From the NCBI GenBank assembly GCA_003054495.1, contig CP028514.1, forward strand, positions 2,248,001-2,312,000: a DNA stretch of 64,000 bases. The letters run 5' to 3'. The stretch's first letter is position 1. Every line of letters starts with the position of its first letter. This DNA comes from Carboxydocella thermautotrophica (GTDB taxonomy: Bacteria > Bacillota > GCA-003054495 > Carboxydocellales > Carboxydocellaceae). The position numbers and the translations under genes were made by a program. This document shows, piece by piece, positions 4,392-43,281 of this stretch. Below the pieces are notes generated by a model. The model had not been told where the DNA came from. It saw only the letters and a list, made by a program, of their open reading frames with translations, and searched no databases.

Positions 4392-4697
4392 ATGGATATT
4401 GGAAAGCATATCAAAAAACTTAGGGACCAATATGAATTAAGCATGAATGAACTTGCCCGCCGTTCAGGTGTTGCACAGTCAAGTATTAGCGAAATAGAGT
4501 CTGGTAAAAGACAACCTACTTTTGAAGTTCTGGAACGCATCATTTCTGGATTTGGTCTTTCTTTCGCCGAATTCTTTTCCGAAGAAACTCCGGACATGCC
4601 TCCGGATCTGCGGCAGTTACTCCAGGAGGCCGAATCCTTAACTCCTGAGCAAAGACAGCTATTGACTGCTTTCCTCAAAAGTCTGAAAGGAGAATGA
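4392..4697 (+). CDS. CI-like XRE repressor
   Basis: A 101-residue protein with an N-terminal XRE domain (residues 1-60; NELARRSGVAQSSISEIESG) and a short C-terminal helical segment (residues 68-98, PPDLRQLLQEAESLTPEQRQ). It lacks a LexA-type self-cleavage domain, so induction would need another route such as proteolysis by the ImmA-type peptidase at 7433. AAAGGAG precedes the ATG. It is divergent to the Cro-like gene across the operator region and overlaps the next gene by four bases, suggesting they are co-translated. Confidence 0.85.
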   Translation: MDIGKHIKKLRDQYELSMNELARRSGVAQSSISEIESGKRQPTFEVLERIISGFGLSFAEFFSEETPDMPPDLRQLLQEAESLTPEQRQLLTAFLKSLKGE

Positions 4698-5011
4698 TTA
4701 TGGAAAAGAAGATAGACATGCTGCTTGATTACGTTGCACAAATTACCCAGGAACTTACGGATATCAAGAACACCCAACAGCAGCACTCTCAACAACTGGC
4801 TGCAATGCAACATTCTATTGCTCGCATTGAAAATGAATATGGGGAAAAGATTACCGCCCTATTCGATGGTTACTCTATGCGCGGTGACCAAATTGCCCAT
4901 CTGCAAGAACATCTTGATGAACGCCTGGATGCTATTCAAACCGACTTGTCCTATATTGTGAGCAAAATCGCCCAGCATGAGAGAAAACTCGTTCGCCTTG
5001 ATGCAAAATGA
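4694..5011 (+). CDS. Coiled-coil protein coupled to the repressor gene
   Basis: A 105-residue protein, nearly all helix, with heptad character throughout (DMLLDYVAQITQELTDIKN, then ITALFDGYSMRGDQIAHLQE). GxLDGY-type segments and the pattern of many His/Gln resemble the short helical proteins that follow XRE repressors in clostridial prophages. ATG AUGs at 4694 or 4700 lie inside the preceding gene's end, with GAAAGGAG upstream. Probably an accessory of the repressor, for example an antirepressor or oligomerisation partner, but this is inference. Confidence 0.65.
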   Translation: MIMEKKIDMLLDYVAQITQELTDIKNTQQQHSQQLAAMQHSIARIENEYGEKITALFDGYSMRGDQIAHLQEHLDERLDAIQTDLSYIVSKIAQHERKLVRLDAK

Positions 5012-5053
5012 ATTTAACAAGGATTGCCATAGGCGGGACAAGCCGGCTTAAAA

Positions 5054-5079
5054 GTCGCCAAAAACCTTGACTCGTTTAA
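5054..5079. repeat. 26-base direct repeat, copy 1
   Basis: GTCGCCAAAAACCTTGACTC plus GTTTAA, found again at 5494-5519 with a single A-to-G change. The two copies lie 440 bases apart in the same orientation and enclose the small TTG-start gene and the small leftward gene. Not part of any gene. It may be a trace of recombination or a protein-binding site. Confidence 0.85.
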
Positions 5080-5127
5080 CTCGAAAATCTTTAATGCCCC
5101 GACAAGTCCCAAGGAGAGTGTTGCCAA

Positions 5128-5325
5128 TTGAAAAGCTTTGAAATTACCAAGGAACTTACATTAGCGATTATTAACTCAAAGAATTTTGTATTACCCAATG
5201 TCGATAATTCAATGGATTTCAATACTAAACTCGCAGAAGAAATAGGTAAAATATACGCGACTATCTTTAACACAGTCAGTAAGCTTGAAAAAGAAAATAG
5301 ACCTCGTCCTGGCGATTTAAAATAA
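5128..5325 (+). CDS. Small TTG-start protein of unknown function
   Basis: A 65-residue protein read from TTG at 5128, with AAGGAGAG nine bases upstream. Sequence SFEITKELTLAIINSKNF then FNTKLAEEIGKIYATIFNTV indicates two amphipathic helices. Small proteins of this type are frequent in clostridial prophages and plasmids next to XRE regulators. It ends five bases before the convergent small gene at 5331-5471. No function can be assigned. Confidence 0.6.
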   Translation: MKSFEITKELTLAIINSKNFVLPNVDNSMDFNTKLAEEIGKIYATIFNTVSKLEKENRPRPGDLK

Positions 5326-5330
5326 CCTGT

Positions 5331-5471
5331 TTATTCATTTAAAAGCCTTAATGCCAAAACAATAGTTTCAATATTTTTACGGACTTGCTCGGGGTCAACT
5401 AACTTCTTGTTCCATTCAATAAGTAATTGGATTTGGCTTATTAAAACTTCTTCAAACCAGCTATTCCTCAC
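5331..5471 (-). CDS. Small GTG-start leftward protein, 46 residues
   Basis: A 46-codon frame from GTG at 5471 with a perfect AGGAGGTGA site at 5478-5486. The product starts VRNSWFEEVLISQIQLLIEW and continues NKKLVDPEQVRKNIETIVLA; it is helical and has no recognised domain. It is convergent with the small gene ending at 5325. The strong ribosome site and codon character support it being real. It may be the last gene of the leftward XRE transcript from 5767. Confidence 0.55.
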   Translation of the reverse strand: MRNSWFEEVLISQIQLLIEWNKKLVDPEQVRKNIETIVLALRLLNE

Positions 5472-5493
5472 TCACCCTCACCTCCTACCCTGT

Positions 5494-5519
5494 GTCGCCG
5501 AAAACCTTGACTCGTTTAA
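5494..5519. repeat. 26-base direct repeat, copy 2
   Basis: GTCGCCGAAAACCTTGACTC plus GTTTAA; differs from the copy at 5054-5079 at one base. It lies just left of the end of the XRE gene at 5537. See the first copy. Confidence 0.85.
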
Positions 5520-5536
5520 GAGGATTGCTACACCTC

Positions 5537-5767
5537 CTACCCCGCCTTGGGCTTTTGTTCTGCATGATTGACAGTATCGTCAAAAAAAATTTCCTCTACT
5601 TTACAGCCAAGGGCATTTGCTATCTTTAGCATAAGTTTCCCGCTAACATTATATTTCCCGTTTTCCAGATCGGACAAATATGGTCTGCTTATTTTTAATA
5701 TGCTCGCCAATTCCTCTTGCGTCATGCCAAGCGCCTTTCGCTTTAAGGCAATTAAATTCCTCATCAA
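5537..5767 (-). CDS. XRE repressor of the second switch (Cro-like)
   Basis: A 76-residue protein with a full XRE helix-turn-helix (residues 3-60; GMTQEELASILKISRPYLSD and ENGKYNVSGKLMLKIANALG) and a short acidic end. It is leftward and divergent from the 142-residue XRE gene at 5915 across a second set of repeated operator-like sites. A TTGACA -35 on its strand (complement of 5832-5837) with an 18-base spacer and TATGCT supports a promoter. It is therefore the Cro-like half of a second immunity-type switch. Confidence 0.8.
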   Translation of the reverse strand: MMRNLIALKRKALGMTQEELASILKISRPYLSDLENGKYNVSGKLMLKIANALGCKVEEIFFDDTVNHAEQKPKAG

Positions 5768-5802
5768 CTACACCCCCTCTCATTCGTTCTGCATTCCTTA
5801 CA

Positions 5803-5884
5803 TGTAAAGCATAACATACATTAATTTAGGCTGTCAAGTATGTTTTACAAAAAAAATTACAATTTACGTATGGTATGTCTTACA
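5803..5884. promoter_or_regulatory. Second divergent switch: three repeated operators and promoter
   Basis: Three copies of an 11-base site TATGYYTTACA: TATGCTTTACA on the minus strand at 5803-5813, TATGTTTTACA at 5839-5849 and TATGTCTTACA at 5874-5884. They are unlike the ATCTG/AGAT sites of the first switch. The leftward promoter TTGACA (complement of 5832-5837) with TATGCT at 18-base spacing overlaps the first site. The third site lies just upstream of a TTAAAAT -10-like element before the rightward gene. Confidence 0.7.
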
Positions 5885-41704: not shown

Positions 41705-41777
41705 TAAAAAGGCACCTCCTGGGGATATTCTCCCCCTGGAAGCGCCATTGCTTGCCTGCGGTACGCCCTTGCACCGC
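41705..41777 (-). promoter_or_regulatory. ANTAR leader: two AxxGxx hexaloops and overlapping terminator
   Basis: On the minus strand hairpin P1 is GCGGTGC-AAGGGC-GTACCGC (41777-41758), P2 is AAGC-AATGGC-GCTT (41753-41740); each has a six-base loop with A at place 1 and G at place 4, the known ANTAR target. The 3' arm of P2 lies inside a terminator: GGCGCTTCC...GGAGGTGCC then TTTTT (41746-41705). P2 and the terminator are mutually exclusive, as in ANTAR antitermination. Confidence 0.85.
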
Positions 41778-41799
41778 CTGTATTCCCTGTTATGTTTTC

Positions 41800-41828
41800 A
41801 TTATAGCAGAGGATTTCACTCCCGGCAA
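41800..41828 (-). promoter_or_regulatory. Sigma-A promoter of the ANTAR-amt-glnB operon
   Basis: Minus strand TTGCCG (complement of 41823-41828), 17 bases, then TATAAT (complement of 41800-41805). The start point would lie about 20 bases before hairpin P1 of the leader. Confidence 0.75.
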
Positions 41829-41838
41829 CCCCTGGTCC

Positions 41839-43281
41839 TCATGTATACTGGATTAAACTTTTTACCAGCTGCCAGGCCTGGTCCCGGTTCTGGATCTTTC
41901 CTAGAGCCTGAGCCTCCAGCAGTTCCCTTAGCATGCGGCCGATTTCCGCCCCCTTGATGTGCGGGAAAGCGGCTGCCAGTTCATCCCCTCTCAGCATTGG
42001 TTCCGGTTGCCAGCGTTCTTTTTCCTTGAGCCAGGTGTCCCATAAGCCCAAAATAAAGGCCTGGAAAGTCTCCCACTCTTCCTTGTCCGGTTTGTACTTG
42101 ACTTTTGCCGCCAGGTCCGCTACTGCCAGCACCAGCAGGTCAGGTAAATCCTCTCCCACGTCCCGGTAAAAGCGATACAAAGCCCGGCGGCTGGGCTTGC
42201 CTTTTACCGGCCGGGTATTGAAGAGATGCAAAGGGCGCATATGTAAAGCTACCAGCTTTTGGAGCAACTGGGCCTCTCGCCGTCCCCAGGTCAGGCGGCG
42301 GACCAGAGGACCGATGAGAGTTGCTCCTTCCCGCTCATGGCCGTAAAAGACAATCCGTCCGCTTTCCCTGGTCATGGCGGTTTTGGGTTTGCCCATGTCA
42401 TGGAACAGAGCCCCCAGTTTCCAGACCTGGTAACGTTGCCTGGGGTGGCGGGTTAATCTTTCGACCGCTCTCTTTTTTACCACCTCGGCCAGTTCTGCCC
42501 CTAACCATTGCTCTGGCTCGGCCAATATCTCTTCCATGATTTCCAGTACCGCCAGGCAATGACGTCCCACTGTCACGGTATGATGGAAATTCTGTTCAGC
42601 GGTCATCATTTCCTCCAGCTCCGGCCAAACCTGGTAAAAGAGCCCCCTCGTCTCCAGGTCGGCGGTAATCACGGCCGCCGTCCCCGGCAGGGCAAAGAGC
42701 TGACTGATTTCTTCCCCTATTCTTTCCCGGGCCGCCAGGGCCAGCAGGGTTTGTTCCCGGCTCAGCATTTCCTCCAGTTCCGGGGCAAAGGTCAACCCGA
42801 AACGGGCGGCAAGGCGCAGGGCCCGCAGAAGCCTCACAGGGTCATCCTGAAAAATGCGAGGATGACAGGGAGCCAGCATCCGTTCCCGCCAGTGCCCCAG
42901 CCCTCCCAGGGGATCAATAATCTGGTCCGTCCCTGCCGGATGGCCTGCCTCTGTCAGCGGTAAGGCCATAGCATTAATGGTAAAATCCCGGCGCCGCAGG
43001 TCCTGAATCAGACTGTTGCCCTGTCGGGCAGCCAGGTCGATGACCAGTTCGCCGGCAACCACCCGACCGACATCATTCTCTTCATCCAGAGGTACAAAAC
43101 TGGCTGCCAGCTCATCTGCCAGGCGCCGGGCCAGATTCAGCCCCTGACCGCGGGGGACGACAAAGTCCAAATCCTTGGCTTCAACCCCGGCCAGTAAGTC
43201 CCGCACATAGCCCCCTACCAGATACAGCTCCTGCCCCTCGGCCCGGCAACGGCGAGCAAAGGCCCAGACTTGCTCCAGCAT
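41839..43281 (-). CDS. cca: CCA-adding tRNA nucleotidyltransferase
   Basis: A 480-residue protein: head domain with VGGYVRDLLAGVEAKDLDFV (GGxVRD then the DxD metal site), a neck region with the RRDFTINAM segment, and a C-terminal HD domain (ALFHDMGKPKT). The HD insertion is typical of many Firmicutes and gram-negative enzymes. It adds or repairs the 3' CCA of tRNAs from CTP and ATP. It is preceded by a small membrane protein gene 11 bases away and followed by the ANTAR promoter, so it likely ends the AOR-linked transcript. Confidence 0.93.
   Translation of the reverse strand: MLEQVWAFARRCRAEGQELYLVGGYVRDLLAGVEAKDLDFVVPRGQGLNLARRLADELAASFVPLDEENDVGRVVAGELVIDLAARQGNSLIQDLRRRDFTINAMALPLTEAGHPAGTDQIIDPLGGLGHWRERMLAPCHPRIFQDDPVRLLRALRLAARFGLTFAPELEEMLSREQTLLALAARERIGEEISQLFALPGTAAVITADLETRGLFYQVWPELEEMMTAEQNFHHTVTVGRHCLAVLEIMEEILAEPEQWLGAELAEVVKKRAVERLTRHPRQRYQVWKLGALFHDMGKPKTAMTRESGRIVFYGHEREGATLIGPLVRRLTWGRREAQLLQKLVALHMRPLHLFNTRPVKGKPSRRALYRFYRDVGEDLPDLLVLAVADLAAKVKYKPDKEEWETFQAFILGLWDTWLKEKERWQPEPMLRGDELAAAFPHIKGAEIGRMLRELLEAQALGKIQNRDQAWQLVKSLIQYT

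Follow-up and report, generated by a model that had tools for sequence, protein, structure and literature searches.

A predicted autoregulatory dual-hexaloop ANTAR antitermination leader before the ammonium operon of Carboxydocella thermautotrophica

Genes and leader at the ANTAR-amt-glnB locus

The 64-kb stretch of DNA analyzed here (the window) carries on its minus strand a gene for an ANTAR response regulator, followed by amt and glnB and preceded by a structured leader. The order of elements, 5' to 3' on the minus strand, was promoter, hairpin P1, hairpin P2, terminator, U tract, ribosome-binding site and the three genes, with the leader extending from 41828 to 41702.

41828 to 41800, minus strand: predicted promoter, TTGCCG-17 nt-TATAAT, extended -10 (TG before the -10), 10/12 consensus matches
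41777 to 41758, minus strand: hairpin P1, GCGGUGC-AAGGGC-GUACCGC, 7 bp, loop at 41770-41765, -10.9 kcal/mol
41756 to 41738, minus strand: hairpin P2 (antiterminator), GG(C)AAGC-AAUGGC-GCUUCC, 4+2 bp with one bulged C, loop at 41749-41744, -4.4 kcal/mol
41746 to 41711, minus strand: intrinsic terminator, GGCGCUUCC...GGAGGUGCC, 14-bp stem, -25.7 kcal/mol
41710 to 41702, minus strand: U tract of the terminator, UUUUUAUUU
41680 to 41096, minus strand: ANTAR response regulator, 194 aa (Pfam ANTAR 85 bits, Response_reg 49 bits, above cut-offs)
41058 to 39814, minus strand: amt, ammonium transporter, 414 aa (Pfam Ammonium_transp 448 bits, above cut-off)
39800 to 39462, minus strand: glnB/glnK, P-II protein, 112 aa (Pfam P-II 110 bits, above cut-off)

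A first-pass annotation of this DNA had described the promoter (its strand unstated), the two hairpins, the terminator overlapping the second of them, and the ANTAR regulator followed by amt and glnB. All of these were found again, the three genes scoring above their Pfam cut-offs and the promoter lying on the minus strand, where it was the best promoter-like site in the 4.5 kb scanned. The span given at that time, 41705-41828, was right as to location, but the U tract runs to 41702, three bases beyond it. The stop codon of a cca-like gene, co-directional with the ANTAR gene, lies just ahead of the promoter at 41839.

Both hexaloops, AAGGGC in P1 and AATGGC in P2, begin with A and have G as their fourth base. 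The linker between the whole P1 and P2 stems is short, at 1 nt, and the loop-to-loop distance is 21 (family median 23, range 18-39, interquartile 21-25). The 5' arm of the terminator takes up bases 4-6 of the second loop together with the 3' strand of P2. When growing transcripts were folded stepwise, P1 and P2 formed at 64-84 nt, and P1 and the terminator formed from 88 nt on; P2 and the terminator are thus mutually exclusive folds. The leader fold had a z-score of -4.9 against shuffles. A covariance model, R1, scored the leader at 36.1 bits, the window leader itself being in the R1 seed.

A structured leader with a terminator would be compatible in principle with control of the operon by another cis-acting element, such as a riboswitch, a T-box or a leader peptide. 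However, in an Rfam search of the leader no family passed the cut-off and what appeared at E<=10 was of chance level, 41793-41711 encodes no leader peptide long enough to be useful, and the ANTAR motif accounts for the whole anatomy. We give this explanation next to no weight.

The window ANTAR protein matched the EutV and Rv1626 structures over its full length. The residues of EutV that contact RNA are R142, K143, K149, E160, Y164 and M172 (PMC8934654), and the window protein has R142, K143, K149, E160, F164 and M172 at these positions. They were nearly invariant across 122 relatives, position 164 being F or Y. In the receiver domain, the phosphoacceptor D55 and K104 are present.

Two sites further downstream were also analyzed. 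A candidate second leader between the ANTAR gene and amt (41147-41090) scored 16.7 bits and was rejected: no A1/G4 loop tops its first hairpin, a U tract is missing, and the genome-wide E was about 0.5. At the ANTAR stop codon (41107-41060, minus strand), the sequence GGGC-AATGAA-GTCC can form a hairpin with an A1/G4 hexaloop, in competition with another hairpin in which the ribosome-binding site of amt would be hidden; this is possibly a single-hexaloop site acting on translation, and its score is weak (16.7 bits).

Chance expectation and leaders in relatives

The frequency of the arrangement was determined with a composite finder for twin A..G.. hexaloop hairpins of which the second overlaps the 5' arm of a terminator. 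On both strands of the window it gave exactly one match, at the leader site, and on 100 dinucleotide-preserving shuffles it gave none. Because the composite occurred once in 64 kb and in 0 of 100 shuffles, the anatomy of the leader is not a product of chance. Applied to loci surrounding related ANTAR genes, 796 kb in all, the finder gave eight matches, two of them overlapping at one place, and all eight precede glnA or ANTAR genes (one sits 2 kb before glnA). The strict finder missed the glnA leader of the same genome and the leader of a relative of the same order, both of which were recovered by a relaxed version.

The relaxed search gave further candidates, and the 33 leaders located at homologous loci or close to them were retained; 32 of these could be aligned and formed the seed of R1. 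Two features that the finder had not required were conserved: position 2 of the loops was A in 27/33 and 32/33, and the C-G pair closing the loop was invariant. Covariation among the 32 aligned leaders amounted to 71 double-change cells, as against 26 in shuffles. Pairing was 88%, compared with 35-44% when the alignment was slid, a percentage that the finder's requirement for stable hairpins biases towards structure. Of the 24 relatives that bear ANTAR genes, 19 had leaders by R1, as against none of the six relatives without; when the count was restricted to ANTAR-bearing genomes from which no sequence had entered the model, it was 8/13. Fewer motif matches have also been described in genomes without ANTAR genes (PMC3369931).

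The model gave 89 matches in the loci of relatives and the own genome, and 80 of them had an overlapping terminator. Loss of the hexaloops from homologous leaders had been named beforehand as a refuting outcome, and it did not occur: G4 was retained in 87/89 and 88/89 loops. The A at position 1, which the first-pass annotation had reported, holds for the window leader, whereas across the family it is A (about 77%) or G (about 21%). Position 1 is a purine, not strictly A, which refines an earlier model that fixed A. The pairs at position 1 over the two loops were 55 A/A, 11 A/G, 10 G/A and 8 G/G (Fisher p = 0.023, on related sequences). A specificity code of A-type and G-type loops is not claimed, as mixed pairs outnumber G/G. 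The gene following the leader was most often glnA (24), an ANTAR gene (15) or amt (13), and also nifH (3) and glnB (1); asparagine synthase, glutamate synthase, carbamoyl-phosphate synthase and ethanolamine genes were further read by eye, without a family search.

In the closest relative, of the same order, the ANTAR protein is 56% identical, and both hexaloops and the terminator are kept before its gene in a leader of different sequence. A second leader follows that ANTAR gene and precedes a gene read by eye as the urease accessory gene ureE. The upstream gene also differs in this relative, a point that bears on whether the hairpin at 41746-41711 is simply a constitutive terminator of the cca-like gene, with the hexaloops incidental. 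The two genes are co-directional in the window, and no other terminator was predicted between the cca-like stop and the ANTAR start. Nevertheless, the relative has its leader before ANTAR despite the different upstream gene, the twin hexaloops with overlapping terminator were absent from all shuffles, and a strong predicted promoter lies between cca and the leader. A mere cca terminator is a very improbable reading.

Other leaders and the second ANTAR protein of the genome

The genome was searched with the covariance model, 150 candidates being passed on to scoring from a first look, so that weaker leaders may be missed. At least four leaders besides that of the window were found, giving a total of at least five in four transcription units.

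Between the second ANTAR gene and glnA, about 25 kb from the window leader: glnA leader, loops AAAGGG/AATGGC (covariance model)
Between a glnB and the second amt: amt2 leader, loops GATGGG/GATGAC (covariance model)
Genome 2334501-2334379, minus strand: tandem nifH leaders, loops GACGAA/GATGGG then AGGGAA/AACGGA, weak scores (genome-wide E 0.02 and 0.08)
Genome 2314629-2315204, minus strand: second ANTAR gene, just beyond the window, before glnA

Each of the tandem nifH leaders has its own overlapping terminator. At position 1, both loops of the first leader carry G and both loops of the second carry A. We read the operon behind the two leaders as nifHDKEN followed by a P-II pair and nifB. The G/G pairs of the family include the amt2 leader and the first nifH leader.

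A genome scan showed that the amt gene of the window is the only intact copy, the one other copy being interrupted and carrying stops. In this second amt (genome 485632-486807; locus 4633-5808), a segment of about 120 bp at locus 4845-4966 shows its match to Amt in the antisense frames only. The inverted repeats that flank it are short and imperfect, a pattern resembling a small inversion.

The genome encodes two ANTAR proteins, one of them directly downstream of the window leader. In the second, Ala replaces the phosphoacceptor Asp (LATNLP), and because this aspartate is lost the protein would not be switchable by usual phosphorylation. Clostridial NitR is an ANTAR regulator located beside glnA; the second ANTAR locus shares this linkage, whereas the window's ANTAR gene precedes amt-glnB.

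With two such proteins in the cell, the leader could work as proposed and yet normally be served by the second ANTAR, or by both, and not by the operon's own. The amt and glnA leaders carry one and the same P2 loop, AATGGC, and R142, K143, K149, E160 and M172 are kept by both proteins. Against this, the leader is physically linked to the ANTAR gene both here and in the 56% identical relative, and autoregulatory leaders before ANTAR genes are common, as the 15 among 89 matches show. We regard service by the second protein, alone or jointly, as rather unlikely, though it carries appreciable weight, and take the operon's own ANTAR as the presumed cognate regulator.

Proposed control, signal input and significance

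We propose, with a probability of about 0.93, that the feature is a dual-hexaloop ANTAR antitermination leader that governs and autoregulates ANTAR-amt-glnB. RNA polymerase would initiate at the 41828-41800 promoter, and P1 and then P2 would fold while emerging. If no ANTAR protein is active, the terminator (about -26 kcal/mol) would displace P2 (about -4 kcal/mol) and end transcription near 41705. An active ANTAR dimer would be recruited at P1 and would hold P2 through contacts to G4 of the loop and to the position-1 purine; with P2 held, the terminator would be blocked, and ANTAR, amt and glnB would be made. The binding and readthrough steps are assigned by homology to EutV, for which the mechanism is established. 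The feedback loop would be positive, because the ANTAR gene sits behind its own leader. The inducing condition is most likely ammonium shortage, since the other leaders of the genome precede glnA, the second amt and nifH. The first-pass annotation called this the complete known mechanism, which is borne out for the hairpins, the exclusive terminator and the operon; the phrase was too strong in that no signal input is visible (no HisKA_2 or HWE kinase) and in that, because a second ANTAR protein exists, we only infer the cognate regulator.

The ANTAR RNA motif of two hexaloop hairpins was defined upstream of ammonium transporter, P-II, nitrogenase, and glutamate and glutamine synthase genes (PMC3369931; Ramesh 2012). 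In the eutP leader of Enterococcus faecalis, controlled by EutV (PMC3369931; structure, PMC8934654), a receiver-ANTAR protein, two hairpins with A1/G4 hexaloops and a P2 exclusive with the terminator are found as in the window, and R142, K143, K149, E160 and M172 are shared. In contrast, the window operon concerns ammonium instead of ethanolamine, its leader precedes the ANTAR gene itself, F164 replaces Y164, and the genome has no HisKA_2 partner kinase. Nitrogen-gene ANTAR regulons have been predicted in Desulfotomaculum acetoxidans, D. reducens and Pelobacter carbinolicus (PMC3369931), with the same RNA motif before ammonium transporter, P-II, glutamine/glutamate synthase and nitrogenase genes. 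Here the organism and the gene order are different and the set is smaller. The control mechanism has been known since 2012, and the window leader, which carries every testable defining feature, is, as judged from its sequence, a well-preserved new example.

A search of this genome for HisKA_2 or HWE kinases gave no match. EutV is activated by EutW, and because there is no HisKA_2 kinase here, activation of the EutW-EutV type is not available; kinases of other types could still serve the ANTAR protein of this genome. Among the 24 ANTAR-bearing relatives, a HisKA_2 domain is encoded in only four, where the distance to an ANTAR domain is at most about 1.1 kb in every case. Nitrogen-linked ANTARs appear to lack a dedicated HisKA_2-type kinase. 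Since 20/24 relatives and this genome are without HisKA_2, and the existing kinases adjoin an ANTAR gene, nitrogen-type ANTARs probably receive nitrogen status by another route. A bolder combination would have the nitrogen-type ANTARs of this lineage be kinase-free (for example, signaled by contact with the adjacently encoded P-II or glutamine synthetase) and the two ANTARs of this genome, with and without the phosphoacceptor, form an AND gate at the tandem nifH leaders; taken together, this is speculative and we think it improbable.

The case sharpens the question of how nitrogen status reaches ANTAR proteins without the kinase type that activates EutV. The locus would be a compact and clean case of an ammonium-uptake operon autoregulated through ANTAR, and the leaders at amt-glnB, glnA, amt2 and nif would place a whole-genome nitrogen regulon under one RNA code.
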